The position numbers and the translations under genes were made by a program. From the NCBI GenBank assembly GCA_947378965.1, contig CANCMG010000011.1, positions 1 to 59,009 of the forward strand: a stretch of 59,009 nucleotides of DNA, read 5' to 3'. Shown here piece by piece: positions 6,312-13,414 of the stretch (position 1 is the stretch's first letter; each line of letters begins with the position of its first letter). The stretch comes from Alcaligenaceae bacterium. Its GTDB lineage: Bacteria > Pseudomonadota > Gammaproteobacteria > Burkholderiales > Burkholderiaceae_B. A model generated the notes under the pieces. That model ran no database searches, had not been told where the DNA came from, and was given only the letters and a program-made list of their open reading frames with translations.

Positions 6312-6387
6312 CTCGAAGCTAAAGGGGCTATCCCTCTATTTCAGTCTGACTCGAAGCTCAAGGGGCTATCCCTTTATTTCAGTCTGA
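6312..6387 (+). repeat. Two tandem 38-bp units, each with a terminator-like hairpin, just after pgsA
   Basis: 6312-6349 and 6350-6387 are near-identical 38-base units starting on the base after the pgsA stop. Each contains a small hairpin (AAGGG-gctat-CCCTT in the second copy) followed by a T-rich TATTT, so they may act as a doubled weak terminator. The rest of the gap up to 6569 shows no gene. Confidence 0.85.
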
Positions 6388-6569
6388 CGATCAGCGGGGC
6401 ATTGCTCTCTGACAAATAACGAGACTAAATCATATCTTTAACGCCTTGGTATCAGACACTCTGTTGTCAGTGAGCTGAGTCGAGCCTCAGATATGCGCAA
6501 GCGTTGCAGGGGAATTTTTTAAAAGGACCTTCGGTGTTGCGCGCAAAGTCCGCGTTGTTTGGTGTGAAT

Positions 6570-6611
6570 TTGATCTAGATCAATACGCCATCGCTTGCTA
6601 GAAATTACGAT
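6570..6611 (+). promoter_or_regulatory. FNR-dependent class II promoter (FNR box plus -10) for the CcoI-like gene
   Basis: 6570-6583 is a perfect FNR box, TTGATctagATCAA. A -10-like TACGAT lies at 6606-6611, with its centre 32 bases from the box centre, exactly the class II arrangement (box at -41.5). The predicted transcription start is about 6618, which is the A of the annotated ATG. Confidence 0.8.
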
Positions 6612-6617
6612 TCAGGC

Positions 6618-7709
6618 ATGAAGCCCAGATCGAGTTCTAGTTCGCAAACAGCCACTCATTCGCAAACAGCCACCCATTCGCAAGCGGCCAACGATTCACA
6701 GACCACGACTCACGCGGTTGGCAGTCAGTCAGTCGCACAGCGCCGCCGAGGCTTAGTACGTTTGGGGTTGGCCTGGCTTGCCATGATGCAAGTGATGATG
6801 TTTGCCTTACCAGGCTACCTTCGGCCTGAGGCGGGCGGCCAAGACAGCCTTGAAGTGCTCGACTGGGCCATCTTCTTAATGAACTGGGCCAGTCTGACGC
6901 TTACGATCCCGGTCATCTTGTATTCGGCCTGGCCGATTTGGCTGGGATGCGCCCGTGCGTGGTCAGCGCGCCAAATCACAATGGACGTACCCGTTGGCAT
7001 CAGTATGCTTGCGGCGTTTATCCCTAGCGTGATGGCGACCTTTAAGGGCGCGGGCGAAGTCTATTTTGACTCAATCACCATGTTTGTTGCGTTTTTGCTG
7101 ACTGCACGTTACATCGAGCAACGCGCCAGCTTGGTTGACTCTGTCGCGTTTAGCCAGACAAGCGTACCGGCTGCCGGCGTCCACTCAGGTCTGCGCGTCT
7201 CAGCCCCCGCGAACTTGGCGAGCTTCAGTCTGCCCTTGATGGCTCAGGCTAATCGTGTGGCGACCTTGTTTGTGCTGATCCAGCTCACGGTGGCGGCTGT
7301 GATAGGTGCCGTTTGGTGGGTGATCGCACCGACACAGGCGTGGTCTGTCTTGGTGTCGTTGCTCGTGATGAGTTGCCCTTGCGCGCTGTCTTTAGCTGCG
7401 CCGGTATCGCTGGCTGCGCTGCAAGTGAATCTGGCGCTTGCTGAGCCTTCGCCTGCAAACCAGCAAGAGGCGTTGCTTGAGCGCACCGTCCGCATGACGC
7501 GCCAAAATCTCTATGGTGCCTTGGCTTGGCACGTCTTGACCATGCCTTTGGCTGCCATGGGTTGGGTCACACCTTGGTTGGCTGCGCTGTCGATGTTGCT
7601 GTCCTCGGTAGCCGTGCTGCTCAATGCCTGGCGGCTATATCGACCCAGACGAGCTGGGCTCAGTCGTGCGGTCGGTGTGTTGACACAAAAACAACACCTT
7701 CAGGCCTAG
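6618..7709 (+). CDS. CcoI/FixI-like P1B-ATPase remnant: membrane helices and CPC motif only, no catalytic domains
   Basis: CcoI-type P1B ATPases supply copper for cbb3 oxidase assembly and normally have about 750-830 residues. This gene gives 363. Residues 1-40 are a Ser/Thr/Gln linker with four SQTATH-like hexads in place of the metal-binding domain. Helix pairs follow at about 45-66 and 80-112, then MDVPVGISMLAAFIPS to FVAFLLTARYIEQRA (122-170). A 40-residue loop stands where the actuator (TGE) domain should be. Next come a helix, the metal-site motif SCPCALSLAAPVS (C253, C255), a 30-residue linker where the DKTGT phosphorylation and nucleotide domains should be, and the last two helices (about 298-340). 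The frame is unbroken, so these are clean in-frame losses rather than a frameshift. It cannot hydrolyse ATP by the known mechanism. It lies first in the cco locus behind an FNR box, so it is probably expressed; a role as a passive copper or assembly factor is inference. Confidence 0.85.
   Translation: MKPRSSSSSQTATHSQTATHSQAANDSQTTTHAVGSQSVAQRRRGLVRLGLAWLAMMQVMMFALPGYLRPEAGGQDSLEVLDWAIFLMNWASLTLTIPVILYSAWPIWLGCARAWSARQITMDVPVGISMLAAFIPSVMATFKGAGEVYFDSITMFVAFLLTARYIEQRASLVDSVAFSQTSVPAAGVHSGLRVSAPANLASFSLPLMAQANRVATLFVLIQLTVAAVIGAVWWVIAPTQAWSVLVSLLVMSCPCALSLAAPVSLAALQVNLALAEPSPANQQEALLERTVRMTRQNLYGALAWHVLTMPLAAMGWVTPWLAALSMLLSSVAVLLNAWRLYRPRRAGLSRAVGVLTQKQHLQA
6642..6713 (+). repeat. Four in-frame 18-bp repeats encoding SQTATH-like hexads
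   Basis: Units at 6642-6659, 6660-6677, 6678-6695 and 6696-6713 encode SQTATH, SQTATH, SQAAND and SQTTTH (residues 9-32 of the CcoI-like protein). The first two differ by one base. Divergence rises along the array, as expected from successive slippage or unequal exchange. Confidence 0.9.
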
Positions 7710-7718
7710 CGCAACCAT

Positions 7719-7871
7719 ATGGAAATTCTCTATCTTCTGTTGCCTTTGTCGTTGGCCATCGTTGCCATGATTGGCGCGGTGTTGTGGTGGGCAGTTTTTT
7801 CAGGGCAATACGACGACGCAGAACAGGCTGGTCTATCTATTTTGCACGACGACGATCACACGGTTAGTTGA
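7719..7871 (+). CDS. ccoS: cbb3-type cytochrome oxidase assembly protein CcoS
   Basis: A 50-residue protein starting MEILYLLLPLSLAIVAM, with one membrane helix (about 4-27), the conserved WWAVFSGQYDD stretch and an acidic ILHDDD end. These are the hallmarks of CcoS/FixS, needed for cofactor insertion into cbb3 oxidase subunits, with Cu or heme maturation proposed in the family. Its length and position between the ccoI-type gene and ccoN are typical. It begins 9 bases after the CcoI-like stop, so it is almost certainly co-transcribed. The end of the gene overlaps an imperfect FNR box for ccoN. Confidence 0.92.
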   Translation: MEILYLLLPLSLAIVAMIGAVLWWAVFSGQYDDAEQAGLSILHDDDHTVS

Positions 7872-7931
7872 TCCTTATCGAAGGTTTAGTTGATCCATAT
7901 CAAAGCTGACTTCTGCTGCGCTTGGCATGAT
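7868..7931 (+). promoter_or_regulatory. Tandem FNR boxes and -10 of the ccoNOQP promoter
   Basis: A perfect box TTGATccatATCAA lies at 7890-7903. A second, imperfect one (TTGATccttATCGA) lies at 7868-7881, 22 bases (two helical turns) upstream and overlapping the ccoS stop. CATGAT at 7926-7931 is the -10, its centre 32 bases from the main box centre. The transcription start should be near 7938. Confidence 0.85.
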
Positions 7932-7968
7932 GTCTGCATCACGATTCATGAGAGACAAGGTGCCAACC

Positions 7969-9435
7969 ATGACAAGCACTTCGGCAGTCAAAACAGAAAT
8001 ATTTAACTATGGTGTGGTCAGGCAATTTGCCGTGATGACGGTTGTTTGGGGTGTCGTGGGGATGTTGGTTGGGGTGGTGTTAGCAGCGCAGCTGATGTGG
8101 CCGCAACTGAACTTCGATATACCGTGGCTCACTTACGGACGCTTGCGCCCCTTACACACCAATGCGGTGATCTTTGCCTTTGGCGGCAGTGCGCTCTTTG
8201 CTGCCTCGTATTACGTGGTGCAACGCACTTGTCAGGCGCGTTTGTTCTGCGCATCGCTCGCAGCCTTTACGTTCTGGGGCTGGCAGTTGGTGATCGTCGC
8301 AGCAGCCGTGACCCTGCCCTTGGGGATCACCACCAGTAAAGAATACGCCGAGCTTGAATGGCCAATCGATATCTTAATTACGCTTGTGTGGGTTGCCTAC
8401 GCAGTGGTGTTTTTTGGCACCATCGTCAAGCGTAAGGTCAAGCATATCTATGTCGCCAATTGGTTTTTTGGTTCATATATTTTGACGATTGCGATTCTGC
8501 ATATCGTCAACAACATCGAAATGCCGGTCTCGCTCTGGAAATCGTATTCTGCTTACGCCGGGGTGCAAGACGCGATGGTGCAGTGGTGGTATGGACATAA
8601 CGCGGTGGGGTTCTTCTTAACCACCAGCTTTCTGGGCATGATGTATTACTTTGTACCCAAGCAGGCTGAGCGGCCCATTTATTCGTATCGCTTGTCGATC
8701 GTGCACTTTTGGGCTCTGGCCTTCACGTATATGTGGGCCGGCCCGCATCACCTTTTGTATACGTCGCTACCCGACTGGACTCAATCCTTAGGCATGGTGT
8801 TTTCGTTGATTCTGTTAGCGCCGTCTTGGGGTGGCATGATTAACGGCATCATGACGCTCTCTGGTGCCTGGTACAAATTGCGCACCGATCCAATCCTGAA
8901 ATTCATGGTGGTCTCGTTGTCGTTTTACGGGATGTCAACCTTTGAAGGATCAATGATGTCGATCCGTACCGTCAACGCGTTGTCGCATTACACCGACTGG
9001 ACAGTCGGACACGTGCATTCAGGCGCACTTGGCTGGGTCGCCATGATCACCTTTGGCATGCTGTATTACCTGATCCCTCGGCTTTGGGGACGCGAAAAAA
9101 TGTATAGCGTCAAGCTCATCGAGGTTCACTTCTGGATCGCAACAATAGGTGTCGTGTTGTACATCGCAGCCATGTGGATTGCCGGCGTGATGCAAGGTTT
9201 GATGTGGCGTGCCACTGAAGTCGATGGCTCGTTGACCTATAGCTTCGTTGAATCAGTCAAATCGACTGCACCGTTTTACTTTATTCGATTATTGGGCGGC
9301 TTGCTTTATCTGAGTGGAATGCTGTTGATGGCCTACAACGTGTTCAAAACGGTCGTCGGACAAACCGCGGTAAATCCGGTGGTGCCAGGCGTCGCCGCTT
9401 CAACCCCTCAATTATCTAGCTTGGCACAGGCCTGA
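7969..9435 (+). CDS. ccoN: cbb3-type cytochrome c oxidase subunit I, CcoN
   Basis: CcoN is the catalytic subunit of the high-affinity proton-pumping oxidase used under low oxygen. It carries heme b and the heme b3-CuB centre. About 12 membrane helices are visible. Ligand regions: [14 protein letters not shown] (low-spin heme), [14 protein letters not shown], the CuB histidine pair in [10 protein letters not shown], the helix VII tyrosine in [14 protein letters not shown] and the heme histidines in [14 protein letters not shown] place the start at ATG 7969 ([10 protein letters not shown]), with AAGG 8 bases upstream, because the FNR promoter predicts transcription from about 7938, downstream of the longer ATG at 7927. 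Length 488 residues, normal. ccoO follows after 10 bases. Confidence 0.97.
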
Positions 9436-9445
9436 GGAGCACATC

Positions 9446-10108
9446 ATGGCACAAGAAAAAACACCTTTCTTCTCGCACGCAACGCTTGAAAAAAATATCG
9501 GTCTGATGATTATCTGCAGTATCTTGGTCGTGCTGTTTGCCGGCTTAGTGCAGATTATCCCGCTGTTTTTTCAGCATTCAACCACTAAACCTTCGGCGGG
9601 TGTCGAACCCTACGATGCCGTGCGTTTGATGGGCCGTGATCTGTACATTCGTGAAGGCTGCGTTGGCTGTCATTCGCAGCAAATTCGGATGTTGCGCGCC
9701 GAAGTGCAGCGTTATGGTCCGTACTCTGTGGCGGGTGAATCCGTTTTTGATCATCCGTTTTTGTGGGGTTCAAAGCGTACCGGTCCTGATTTGGCCCGCA
9801 TCGGCGAGCGCTACTCGGATGACTGGCATCGTATCCATCTGCGCAACCCTCGCGCAGTGGTGCCCGAATCGAACATGCCTGGCTATCCTTGGTTAGCCAC
9901 CAAGCTGGTCCAAAGTGATGATATCGGCGATCGCATGCGTGCCTTGCGCGTGTTGGGCGTGCCGTACACCGCCGCCCAGATTAGCGCCGCACCCGCAGCA
10001 CTCAAAGGCAAAACAGAAGAAGACGCCTTGATCGCCTATCTGCAAGGATTAGGGACTGGGATACGCAAAGCCGCACAGGCACAGTCGCTTAAAACAGGGG
10101 GTCAATGA
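9446..10108 (+). CDS. ccoO: cbb3-type cytochrome c oxidase subunit II, CcoO (monoheme c)
   Basis: CcoO is a membrane-anchored monoheme cytochrome c that passes electrons from CcoP to CcoN. The 220-residue protein has one N-terminal helix (about 18-42), the heme motif CVGCH in [13 protein letters not shown] (about residues 70-78) and the family motif [12 protein letters not shown]. The likely axial methionine lies in [16 protein letters not shown]-like bases precede ATG 9446. Its TGA overlaps the ccoQ start (TGATG), suggesting coupled translation. Confidence 0.97.
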
Positions 10109-10281
10109 TGCTTGCTTATCTCAATGCGTTGTCAACGCTCATGGCGATGCTGACGTTCTTTGCAATTGTCTGGTGGGCGTTTTCACGCGAACGCCAAGTG
10201 GCAAACCACGAAGCGGAAATGTTGCCTTTCGTCTTGCCTGATGAATCGCACCCACATCCACACGGAGGCACACGGCCATGA
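10108..10281 (+). CDS. ccoQ: cbb3-type oxidase subunit IV, CcoQ
   Basis: A 57-residue protein with one membrane helix (LNALSTLMAMLTFFAIVWWAF) followed by a charged, His-rich tail (HPHPHGG), the usual CcoQ/FixQ form. CcoQ stabilises the cbb3 complex against oxygen. The start could be ATG 10105 or 10108; 10108 has the better spacing from the GGGGG ribosome-binding stretch. The ATGA at 10278-10281 is shared with ccoP. Confidence 0.88.
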   Translation: MLAYLNALSTLMAMLTFFAIVWWAFSRERQVANHEAEMLPFVLPDESHPHPHGGTRP

Positions 10282-11222
10282 GCGACTTTGTCAACGGTTT
10301 TTGGGGGTATTACGTTGCCTTCGTAGTGATCGCGGGGATTGTTTGGTGCCTGTGGTTGATATTTTCGCAGCGTAAGTGGCTTAAACCTCAGTCCGGTAAA
10401 GTTCAAGATACCGGTCACGTCTGGGACGGTGATTTGCGCGAGATGAACAACCCAGTGCCACGTTGGTGGACGATCATGTACGTCATGATGTGTCTGTTTG
10501 GCTTGGGCTATCTGGTGCTGTACCCAGGGTTGGGGGCTTTTCAAGGAAGCCTAGCTTACACCTCAGCTCAAGAAGTTAAGCAAGACCAGGCTGCGCTCGA
10601 TGCAACGGTCAAGCCGACCTATGCGCGCTTTGCAACAATGGATATCCCACAGATTGCTGCAGACCCCGAAGCGCATTTGATCGGTGAGCGTTTGTTCTTG
10701 AATAACTGTGCACAATGCCACGGCTCCGATGCAAAAGGCAGCACGAGCTTTCCGAACCTGGTTGAAGGGGATTCGATTTATGGTCGCCAGCCCGAAGTGC
10801 TGTTGGCAACGATTACCCAAGGCCGTAATGGCATGATGCCAGCGTTAGGTGCGGCAATTGATGCAGGCACCGCTGGGGATATCGCTCAGTATGTGCGGTC
10901 ACTGTCTGGCTTGGCGCATGATCAGATTCGTATCGTGCGTGGCAAGCGCGAGTATATGAACGCGTGCGCTGCCTGCCACGGCCCCGAGGGTAAAGGTAAT
11001 AAGGCCTTGGGTGCGCCGAATTTGACCGACGACGTGTGGCTATACGGTAGTTCAGAGGCGACCATCGTGCATGGCATTTTAAACGGACGCAATAATCGTA
11101 TGCCCGCTCAAGAGCAGACCTTAACCGCTGAGCAGATTCGCTTAGTGGCAGCCTGGGTGTGGGGCTTGTCAAAAGGTGTGGATTTAACGTCTGCAACTGT
11201 GAAAAGCGCCCGGGCAAAGTGA
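10278..11222 (+). CDS. ccoP: cbb3-type cytochrome c oxidase subunit III, CcoP (diheme c)
   Basis: CcoP is the diheme cytochrome c subunit that accepts electrons from soluble cytochrome c. The 314-residue protein starts with a membrane helix (about 7-30), then GHVWDGDLREMNNPVPRWW, diagnostic for CcoP/FixP, and a second hydrophobic segment (about 54-80). Two cytochrome c domains follow, with CAQCHG (about residue 145) and CAACHG (about 230). Axial methionines are in GMMPALG and NRMPAQ. The ATGA overlap with ccoQ supports an ordered ccoNOQP operon. Confidence 0.97.
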   Translation: MSDFVNGFWGYYVAFVVIAGIVWCLWLIFSQRKWLKPQSGKVQDTGHVWDGDLREMNNPVPRWWTIMYVMMCLFGLGYLVLYPGLGAFQGSLAYTSAQEVKQDQAALDATVKPTYARFATMDIPQIAADPEAHLIGERLFLNNCAQCHGSDAKGSTSFPNLVEGDSIYGRQPEVLLATITQGRNGMMPALGAAIDAGTAGDIAQYVRSLSGLAHDQIRIVRGKREYMNACAACHGPEGKGNKALGAPNLTDDVWLYGSSEATIVHGILNGRNNRMPAQEQTLTAEQIRLVAAWVWGLSKGVDLTSATVKSARAK

Positions 11223-11231
11223 GTGAATTGA

Positions 11232-12887
11232 ATGTCGCCTGATTCATTCGTGCCTGCAGTGGTATCTGCGAATGCAACTGTAGAGGCATCTCTCCTTGGC
11301 GATCCTGCTTCTGCCTCTGCCTCTGCACCTGCACCTGCTTCAGCACTTGTTTCCGCCGCTGCTGACACCGCTGCTTCTGCCCCCGCTTGGCGCCCGCCAG
11401 GCGCCAAGCCAGCGACAGACGGTTCGCATCCGGTCGAACAGGCAATTCAAGACGTCAGACAAAAAATATACATGCGCTCAGTCACAGGGATATTTGCCCG
11501 CTGGCGGTTGATATTTGTGGGCCTCACCCAGTTGATCTTTTATGCAGTCCCTTGGCTCACCTGGAACGATCGTCAGGCGGTGTTGTTTGATCTTGGTGCG
11601 CGTAAGTTTTATATCTTTGGCATGGTGTTGTGGCCGCAAGACGTCATTTACTTGACACTGCTGTTGCTGATCTCGGCGCTCGGACTATTTTTATTTACTG
11701 CGATTGCTGGTCGTCTGTTTTGTGGCTATGCCTGCCCACAAACCGTCTATACCGAAATTTTTATGTGGATTGAGCGGCACACCGAAGGGGATCGGGTTGC
11801 GCGCATTCGCTTAGATGAAGCGCCTTGGTCGTTGCGCAAACTGCGGATCAAGGCCGGCAAACATGCGCTTTGGCTGGCCGTCGCAGGGCTGACGGGCTTT
11901 ACGTTTATTGGTTACTTTGCGCCTATCCGTGAGCTTGGTCAGGCCTTGATCAGTTTTACCTTTGGGCCGTGGCAGTGGTTTTGGTTTTTGTTTTATAGCT
12001 TTGCAACGTGGGGCAATGCTGGCTTTTTACGCGAGCAGGTCTGTCAGTACATGTGCCCGTATGCGCGCTTTCAAAGTGTGATGGTAGACCCAGACACCTT
12101 GGTCGTAACCTACGATACCTCTCGTGGCGAGCCGCGCGGTGCGCGTTCACGCAAGGTTGATCACTATGCGCAAGGCTTGGGTGATTGTGTCGATTGCAGT
12201 ATTTGCGTACAAGTCTGCCCGACTGGCATCGATATCCGACAGGGTTTGCAATACATGTGTATTGGTTGTGGTGCCTGCGTAGATGCCTGCAACCAAGTGA
12301 TGCAGAAAATCGCGTACCCAGAGGGCTTGATTCGCTATACATCAGAGCGCGGGATGTTAGAAAAGCTCTCTGTACGACAAGTCCGTCAGCATTTGTTGCG
12401 ACCGCGTGTGCTTATTTACAGCACCCTCATGCTGGTGCTAGTGTCGATTTTTGTCATCGCCTTAGCGACTCGCATAACGTTGCGCGTAGACGTGATTCGT
12501 GATCGTGGCATGCTAGGACGCGAAGTGGCTGGTGGGATGATCGAAAACGTGTACCGCTTACAGATGATGAACGCCTCTGAGCATAGCCTGATTTTGTCGG
12601 TGCGAGCCGAAGGTTTACCTAGTTTAAGTGTGAAGTTTGCCGATCCTTCTGTCGCGGTGCTACAAGTCAAACCCGAAGCCATCGATAAAAATGATTCAGT
12701 GCTCGAAGTGCCGCAGGTTGAGATCGCAGCGGCTTCAAACCGGGTCCTGGCGGTGGTGCTGCGAGCCCCTCGAGAGGCAGCCAAGCCCGGGTCTTATCCT
12801 ATTCATTTTGTCACAACCTCAAGTGCACCTGATGGACACGTTTCACTGACTGTAAGAGAGGCGTCAAGTTTTATCATGCCTCAATAA
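11232..12887 (+). CDS. ccoG: Cytochrome c oxidase accessory protein CcoG (RdxA/FixG), polyferredoxin
   Basis: CcoG is a membrane polyferredoxin; Rhodobacter CcoG reduces Cu(II) to Cu(I) for cbb3 assembly. The 551-residue protein has several helices, cluster-type cysteine motifs in CGYACPQTVYTE and CQYMCPYARFQS, and a two-cluster ferredoxin domain with CVDCSICVQVCPTGID and CIGCGACVDACNQV (about residues 318-355). The C-terminal FixG immunoglobulin-like domain starts about residue 430. Residues 18-60 are an Ala/Ser/Pro repeat (hexanucleotide-like GCCTCT/GCACCT) absent from typical homologues. It follows ccoP by 9 bases. With the adjacent CcoI-like protein lacking its ATPase domains, CcoG may be the only catalytic copper factor encoded at this locus. 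Confidence 0.95.
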   Translation: MSPDSFVPAVVSANATVEASLLGDPASASASAPAPASALVSAAADTAASAPAWRPPGAKPATDGSHPVEQAIQDVRQKIYMRSVTGIFARWRLIFVGLTQLIFYAVPWLTWNDRQAVLFDLGARKFYIFGMVLWPQDVIYLTLLLLISALGLFLFTAIAGRLFCGYACPQTVYTEIFMWIERHTEGDRVARIRLDEAPWSLRKLRIKAGKHALWLAVAGLTGFTFIGYFAPIRELGQALISFTFGPWQWFWFLFYSFATWGNAGFLREQVCQYMCPYARFQSVMVDPDTLVVTYDTSRGEPRGARSRKVDHYAQGLGDCVDCSICVQVCPTGIDIRQGLQYMCIGCGACVDACNQVMQKIAYPEGLIRYTSERGMLEKLSVRQVRQHLLRPRVLIYSTLMLVLVSIFVIALATRITLRVDVIRDRGMLGREVAGGMIENVYRLQMMNASEHSLILSVRAEGLPSLSVKFADPSVAVLQVKPEAIDKNDSVLEVPQVEIAAASNRVLAVVLRAPREAAKPGSYPIHFVTTSSAPDGHVSLTVREASSFIMPQ

Positions 12888-12927: not shown

Positions 12928-13155
12928 ATGAACGTACAAGAAAAAAACGCTCTGGAAGCAACGTTACCCTGGTGGCGTCAACGTTGGCCTTGGCTGCTCA
13001 TGGCGGGCCCTGCCGTGGCAATCGTGGGCTGTGTCATCACGATTGTGCTGGCGTTTCAAGGCTTTTCTGATCAGCCGATTGTTGATGGCGGTGTCAAACG
13101 CGGTTTAGTCGTCGAAAAAGTCACGACACAGACACCTTTGTCACAACCTCACTGA
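12928..13155 (+). CDS. Short FixH/CcoH-like membrane protein
   Basis: A 75-residue protein with one helix, WPWLLMAGPAVAIVGCVITI, and a following DGGVKRGLVVEK, which resembles the FixH start (PWLL-GP helix, then a conserved VxDxYYKxG-type segment). FixH/CcoH proteins usually have about 150-180 residues and a periplasmic domain involved in cbb3 assembly. Here nearly the whole periplasmic domain is missing. An AGGATT ribosome-binding region precedes ATG 12928. The position after ccoG supports the assignment, but similarity is limited to one helix and its flanks. Confidence 0.65.
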   Translation: MNVQEKNALEATLPWWRQRWPWLLMAGPAVAIVGCVITIVLAFQGFSDQPIVDGGVKRGLVVEKVTTQTPLSQPH

Positions 13156-13168
13156 TACAAGGCGCATC

Positions 13169-13414
13169 ATGAAACGACGCTCGTTGATGTTGATCTTATG
13201 GCCGTCATTTTTGATGGCAGGGGTAGCAAGCGCAGTCGTGTTCGCGTTAATCGACCCGCTTGATGTCGCGATCTTCGGTTACTTTCGACCCGAGCGCGAC
13301 GTGCTTTACGCGGTCGGGTTTTTCTTTTTTTGGTTGATCGCAGGGCTCTCTAGCCTACTGACTCTGTATATCTCACCCAGCCAGCAAGACACACAGTACG
13401 ATATTGGGTTTTAG
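13169..13414 (+). CDS. Small two-helix membrane protein of the cco locus, function unknown
   Basis: An 81-residue protein with two hydrophobic segments (about 6-28 and 46-70), starting MKRRSLMLILWPSFLMAGVAS. A short loop, DPLDVAIFGYFRPERDV, separates the helices, and the polar tail is SPSQQDTQYDIGF. It begins 14 bases after the FixH-like gene and closes the cco gene run. I do not recognise a named family. Topology and context fit an accessory membrane protein of the oxidase. After it a 115-base gap leads to convergent genes, with no clear terminator. Confidence 0.7.
   Translation: MKRRSLMLILWPSFLMAGVASAVVFALIDPLDVAIFGYFRPERDVLYAVGFFFFWLIAGLSSLLTLYISPSQQDTQYDIGF

Follow-up and report, generated by a model that had tools for sequence, protein, structure and literature searches.

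The copper ATPase CcoI, also known as FixI or CopA2, is the P1B-type pump of cbb3 oxidase assembly, and PMC8475189 presents it as the ATP-driven hub of that process. According to the same paper, ATP-driven Cu(I) transport by CcoI of R. capsulatus has been measured, mutation of the cysteines of its CPC motif abolishes cbb3, and extra CopA fails to rescue the loss of CcoI. The second membrane copper site of published CcoI is described there as an Asn together with Met and Ser of TM8 (PMC8475189).

Here we describe a CcoI relative from which all of the cytoplasmic domains are missing. Its gene, short ccoI (6618..7709, + strand), lies in a 59,009-nucleotide stretch of Alcaligenaceae DNA, hereafter the window, and encodes a 363-residue, CcoI-derived eight-helix core. 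A search of the open-access literature, covering titles and abstract openings of the top-ranked papers and therefore weak as a negative, returned no description of a short CcoI.

The membrane core of CcoI is kept without its cytoplasmic domains

The frame at 6618–7709 (+) is open over all 363 residues, and, as the first-pass annotation had claimed, short stretches stand where three domains are expected. We used L126, a full-length CcoI of the window's own family (Alcaligenaceae), as the reference for region lengths. In the alignment, the N-terminal part up to Arg43 comprises 42 residues in the short CcoI and 206 in L126; a linker of 37 residues (aa 173–209; 7134..7244, +) takes the place of the 127-residue actuator region; and a linker of 20 residues (aa 273–292; 7434..7493, +) takes the place of the 268-residue P/N region with its DKTGT motif. 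Neither DKTGT nor a Hydrolase domain (Pfam) is found in the 363-residue protein, the TGE of the actuator domain does not occur in its sequence, and a nucleotide-binding domain is not present, the 20 residues being all that stands in that position. Pfam likewise matches neither of the N-terminal metal-binding domains (ATPase-cat_bd and HMA); both are detected in the full-length proteins L118 and L126, and neither in L122, which is one of three divergent full-length CcoI proteins (L122, L123 and L124) of genus g49. What Pfam does report is a single partial match to the end of the E1-E2_ATPase domain (aa 205–272), and the copper-ATPase models of NCBIfam match far under their cut-offs.

The same loss is seen in the relatives. 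In an alignment of 67 rows (A2), Pfam finds nothing in any row except E1-E2_ATPase and scattered DUF hits that look like chance; 66 of the rows hold the matched stretch only. Among named genomes, in which 163 stretches encode relatives and 80 were kept, DKTGT is present in none of the 80 short-form frames.

An AlphaFold2 model computed from the 67 rows has a mean pLDDT of 76 and a pTM of 0.70. In Foldseek, every one of its ten best PDB matches is a P1B copper ATPase; three reach E <= 0.001, the best being 4bbj (E 3.7e-5; TM-score by query, 0.47), and a profile search finds CopA 3j08 at 1.5e-25. By the model and its Foldseek matches, the eight-helix P1B membrane core is present in the short CcoI, in agreement with the eight CcoI helices that had been aligned by eye at first pass. 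Judged by its sequence, the 363-residue protein is CcoI by descent and not a P-type ATPase by function, and the short form so read cannot use ATP.

Two parts of the protein vary among close relatives: the N-terminal ATHSQ-like repeats (6645–6698), which differ in copy number, and the loop of aa 174–205.

Membrane copper sites

The CPC motif of membrane copper site 1 (aa 253–255; 7374..7382, +), whose presence had been noted at first pass, is kept, and so are Met326, Ser329 and Ser330 of TM8 (M326..S329-S330; 7593..7607, +). All of these residues are invariant in the 58 short and 31 full-length proteins compared. The TM7 pair at aa 304–305, missed by the earlier reader, is Trp304-His305 (7527..7532, +), in place of the Tyr-Asn of full-length CcoI. 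Full-length proteins have Tyr in 30/31 and Asn in 31/31, whereas the short form has Trp (53 proteins) or Phe (5 proteins), followed by His in 58/58. His305 is also invariant across the 67 rows of A2, and a pattern scan recovers W-H or F-H in 75 of the 80 named loci; of the other five, L100 is cut off, three carry His305 in A2, and L103 is known from the pattern scan only. Because Asn gives way to His in every short protein and the Met and Ser are kept, the second site, as defined in PMC8475189, would now be His-Met-Ser where it was Asn-Met-Ser.

Further short-specific residues include W53, N89, P136, T162 and Q222. Under one rule, with 11 full-length rows for comparison, 14 of the 299 columns of the CcoI core are short-specific. 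The same rule applied to the partner proteins yields 5/472 columns in CcoN, 2/195 in CcoO, 0/299 in CcoP, 4/461 in CcoG, 0/29 in CcoS and 1/50 in CcoH; by these counts, any co-change of the partners with the short form is small.

The cco operon

Short ccoI stands first in an operon of the order ccoI-S-N-O-P-G-H, behind a perfect FNR-type box (TTGATCTAGATCAA, 6570..6583), which is the arrangement first read from this DNA. A box of the form TTGA[CT]N4[AG]TCAA lies at most 250 bases upstream in 28 of 29 short-form loci. Downstream follow ccoS (7719..7871, +; 50 aa, matched across loci) and ccoN for the catalytic subunit of the cbb3 oxidase (7927..9435, +; TIGR00780, E 2.2e-235), and then three genes which, from sequence and synteny, we take to be ccoO (9446..10108, +), ccoP (10278..11222, +) and ccoG (11232..12887, +). 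The last frame, of 75 aa (12928..13155, +), is presumably ccoH-like by its position and sequence. The cco synteny is identical in the operons inspected, and the short form occupies the operon position of full-length CcoI.

FixH/CcoH proteins are about twice as long as the 75 residues of the CcoH-like protein here. A shortened CcoH as part of the same stripping was considered and rejected, given the equally short CcoH-like frames beside full-length CcoI in L125 and L126. Past ccoH, a conserved protein of 81 aa is encoded at 13169–13414; it is not tied to the short form, being seen beside full-length CcoI as well. A 38-base unit stands twice in tandem (6313–6388) in the stretch that separates pgsA from the cco promoter region.

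Distribution, selection and descent

In the window's family, Alcaligenaceae, 208 of 268 genomes match at E <= 1e-10. Short-type matches, defined by a best E <= 1e-40 (frame lengths are known for the best of the listed matches), occur in 184 of the 268 genomes and in 31 of the 43 genera of the family, so that the short form is conserved in related genomes. It is found in Zwartia, Sheuella, Achromobacter, Pusillimonas, Pollutimonas, Paenalcaligenes, Candidimonas, Parapusillimonas and Corticimicrobacter, among other named genera. Another 24 genomes match more weakly than 1e-40, and the 13 of these that were inspected all encode full-length proteins with DKTGT and CPC. About six of the 184 genomes, with two separate pieces or a fragment, were inspected individually; G109, G170, G171 and G229 have short frames of 331–339 aa, and ccoI is cut or broken in G029 (a fragment), G124 and G142. 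The lengths of four listed frames (486–828 aa) run from stop to stop: G064 and G068, the two that were inspected, have the whole core in their last 290 residues, and DKTGT is absent from named loci of the same lengths.

The short ccoI of G142 (contig 1, 2212646–2214570) is in two pieces about 1.1 kb apart and accompanied by a weaker CcoN match, and the cco operon of this genome seems to be decaying as a whole.

Wider samples were drawn from the order (399 genomes, E <= 1e-40) and from the phylum (398 genomes, E <= 1e-35). In both, near-complete cores among the matches listed occur only in the window's family, namely in 9 of its genomes, the window's own included. The remaining listed matches are confined to a single part of the core and almost always sit in frames of more than 600 aa; three fragmented assemblies give shorter frames, of 404, 428 and 476 aa. 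A separate origin of the short form outside the family was set aside, as neither sample holds a near-complete core from elsewhere among the matches listed.

Seventeen pairs of relatives were chosen for dN/dS, three of which have saturated dS and are not measurable. In the other 14, dN/dS is 0.03–0.26 over the whole gene and 0.016–0.23 in the TM core, which indicates purifying selection. Together with the occurrence in 31 of 43 genera, these low values support what the first-pass annotation had proposed, selection for a non-catalytic membrane protein.

In a tree built on 299 core columns, with 58 short proteins and 31 full-length ones (support values are those printed once the tree had been rerooted), the short forms make up one clade (bootstrap 71, stem 0.67), nested within a clade (printed support 100) that also holds two full-length CcoI proteins from a different genus of Alcaligenaceae. 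Two rows truncated at contig ends, L027 and L031, are not among the 58; the 80 named loci contribute 21 members to the 58-protein set and 66 to A2. In a second tree, seven short forms lie inside CcoI, apart from the CopA-like pumps. The sequences thus compared place the descent of the short form within the CcoI branch, and from the bootstrap of 71 we infer a single origin.

A full-length ccoI at this position in related strains had been named beforehand as a sign of recent deletion or assembly error. One genome placed in the window's genus (G014) does carry a full-length CcoI at the same operon place (L118, contig 9). However, the CcoN of G014 is 79% identical to that of the window, against 86% for genus g4, a short-form genus, and because its CcoN is more distant than that of another genus, its operon was likely replaced. 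The full-length neighbour is real, but with a probable replacement in G014 and a short form that is family-wide, the conclusion attached to it does not follow.

cbb3 as the only oxygen reductase found

CcoN is matched at E <= 1e-130 in 180 of the 184 short-type genomes. The four without a strong match are G029, G079, G106 and G124, at least two of which have ccoI at a contig end or in pieces. Conversely, four of the 60 genomes with no CcoI match at 1e-10 (G155, G188, G224 and G226) have a strong CcoN, which in G155 and G188 lies at a contig start.

COX1 and CydA were searched in 25 genomes. In G273 and G274, CcoN is the sole COX1 match and CydA has no match; in G136, G276 and G279, CydA is again without a match and CcoN is joined by a single further COX1 match, whose frame of about 750 aa is taken, by its size, for a nitric oxide reductase. 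By these results cbb3 is the only oxygen reductase found in the five genomes, and all five carry the short form. Published Taylorella genomes are described in PMC3250509 as having one terminal oxidase, of the cbb3 type. Two of the five genomes, G274 and G136, both single contigs, were searched for pumps, and each has one match to the CcoI catalytic domain, a pump of 718–719 aa in the CopA-like group; that of G274 is without the ATPase-cat_bd domain, which the full CcoI proteins L118 and L126 have. Since an organism that reduces O2 only via cbb3 must assemble cbb3, a CopA-like pump together with the short CcoI seems sufficient. In these five genomes cbb3 is probably built without a CcoI ATPase, and the gene content suggests that bacteria of the family load copper into cbb3 without a CcoI pump.

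No full ccoI was found elsewhere in the window's genome (assembly 96% complete), the sole other match being a 787-aa pump from the CopA-like group. All 11 genomes searched for pumps have a CopA-like one, and SCO1/SenC is present in 12/12. In G000 (contig 115) the CopA-like pump adjoins an SCO1/SenC gene (L219:867-3993). The SCO-CopA pair was rejected as a partner of the short form, because it occurs in G000 and G005 and also in G014, which has a full-length CcoI, and is thus not specific.

Possible roles of the short CcoI

In the reading that we favour, an Alcaligenaceae ancestor would have lost all cytoplasmic domains of CcoI in place and retained the eight-helix core as a non-catalytic assembly factor. 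A CopA-like pump would supply copper to the periplasm, where SCO/SenC carriers operate; the short CcoI would hold Cu(I) at CPC and at the second site, rebuilt from N-M-S to H-M-S, and pass it on to CuB of CcoN, with CcoS, CcoG or CcoN as possible docking partners. That the short CcoI serves CuB in this way, as a non-catalytic Cu(I) relay or insertase in the membrane, we hold to be slightly better than an even proposition, in which we infer the copper binding, the direction of transfer, the partners and the insertase role.

The relay is favoured by the domain loss, the conservation, the purifying selection, the Asn-to-His switch and the shared synteny, by the finding that genomes whose sole identified oxygen reductase is cbb3 carry the short form, and by the need for the CPC cysteines of CcoI in R. 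capsulatus, as given in PMC8475189. Against it count the pumping with ATP by R. capsulatus CcoI and the inability of extra CopA to replace it (PMC8475189), the four short-type genomes without a strong CcoN match, and the little short-specific change in partner proteins. A cbb3-only strain of B. bronchiseptica was not obtainable, though cco is highly transcribed, according to PMC11257404; this also counts against the relay, with a bearing that hinges on the form of CcoI in that species. For B. pertussis, PMC13038864 reports CcoN to be a pseudogene. The broadest form of the proposal would be a family-wide pseudo-P-type ATPase that shed its engine once and serves as an ATP-independent Cu(I) insertase for cbb3, with a new His in its metal site and with CuB matured without a CcoI ATPase even in cbb3-only bacteria; we give it an even chance.

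The retained eight-helix core and membrane copper sites would also suit a passive Cu(I) channel, in which the ungated helices offer a downhill path from cytosolic Cu(I) to the periplasmic side and CcoN acts as the sink. The operon has likewise retained ccoG, whose product is called a cytosolic cupric reductase in R. capsulatus by PMC13038864. Such a path, permanently open to Cu(I), would however be costly, and the His of site 2 may hold copper tighter than Asn does. It is the cytosolic domains of a P-type ATPase that switch its helices from state to state, and without them the bare core may be locked. We regard a channel as unlikely.

Slightly less likely still is a scaffold or docking factor that binds no copper and brings CcoS, CcoG and CcoN together, with the copper of CuB arriving only via CopA and SCO/SenC. 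The operon partners are indeed retained, and the SCO and CopA-like proteins were found in every genome searched for them (12/12 and 11/11). However, the invariant CPC, Met326, Ser329 and Ser330, and the equally invariant change from Asn to His, are hard to explain without a metal, and a metal site that appears both kept and reshaped speaks against this role.

The CopA-like pump in 11/11 genomes could also be thought to lend its cytosolic domains to the core in trans, as could a split-off catalytic gene, although the presence of the pump is not direct support. The leftover linkers have just 37 and 20 residues, and in the 11 genomes searched with the CcoI catalytic domain no convincing split-off catalytic gene was found: the matches are in frames of 630–1161 aa, apart from two weak ones in short frames (G000 contig 16, 303 aa, E 0.0046; G152, 213 aa, E 3.9e-5). 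Function in trans is accordingly very improbable. A decaying gene, recent deletion or assembly error, for which the full-length CcoI at this place in G014 and the interrupted copy beside a weaker CcoN match in G142 might be cited, is ruled out for practical purposes by the family-wide short-type matches, the low dN/dS and the many independent named assemblies.

Comparison with known systems

A family that has only the membrane core, and in some members of which cbb3 is the sole oxygen reductase identified, lets one ask directly by experiment whether inserting CuB takes pumping by CcoI or just a membrane copper site. The short CcoI further offers a naturally reduced membrane domain of a P-type ATPase, in which copper binding could be studied apart from ATP coupling.

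With CcoI/FixI/CopA2, the P1B copper ATPase of cbb3 assembly (PMC8475189), the short form has in common its descent, operon position, eight-helix core, CPC motif and the M..SS of TM8. Unlike that pump, it is without the N-terminal metal domains and the actuator, P and N domains, and it has W/F-H in TM7 where full CcoI has YN. The membrane-core fold is also that of CopA (CopA1), the P1B copper export ATPase, and the top PDB matches come from CopA and from its homologues in plants and human; the short form nevertheless groups with CcoI instead and has no catalytic domains. Membrane copper chaperones such as Cox11/CtaG and the multi-pass CtaG of Bacillus belong to other protein families and serve other oxidase types, and the likeness to them is in the proposed role only, that of bringing Cu(I) to CuB with no ATPase involved.
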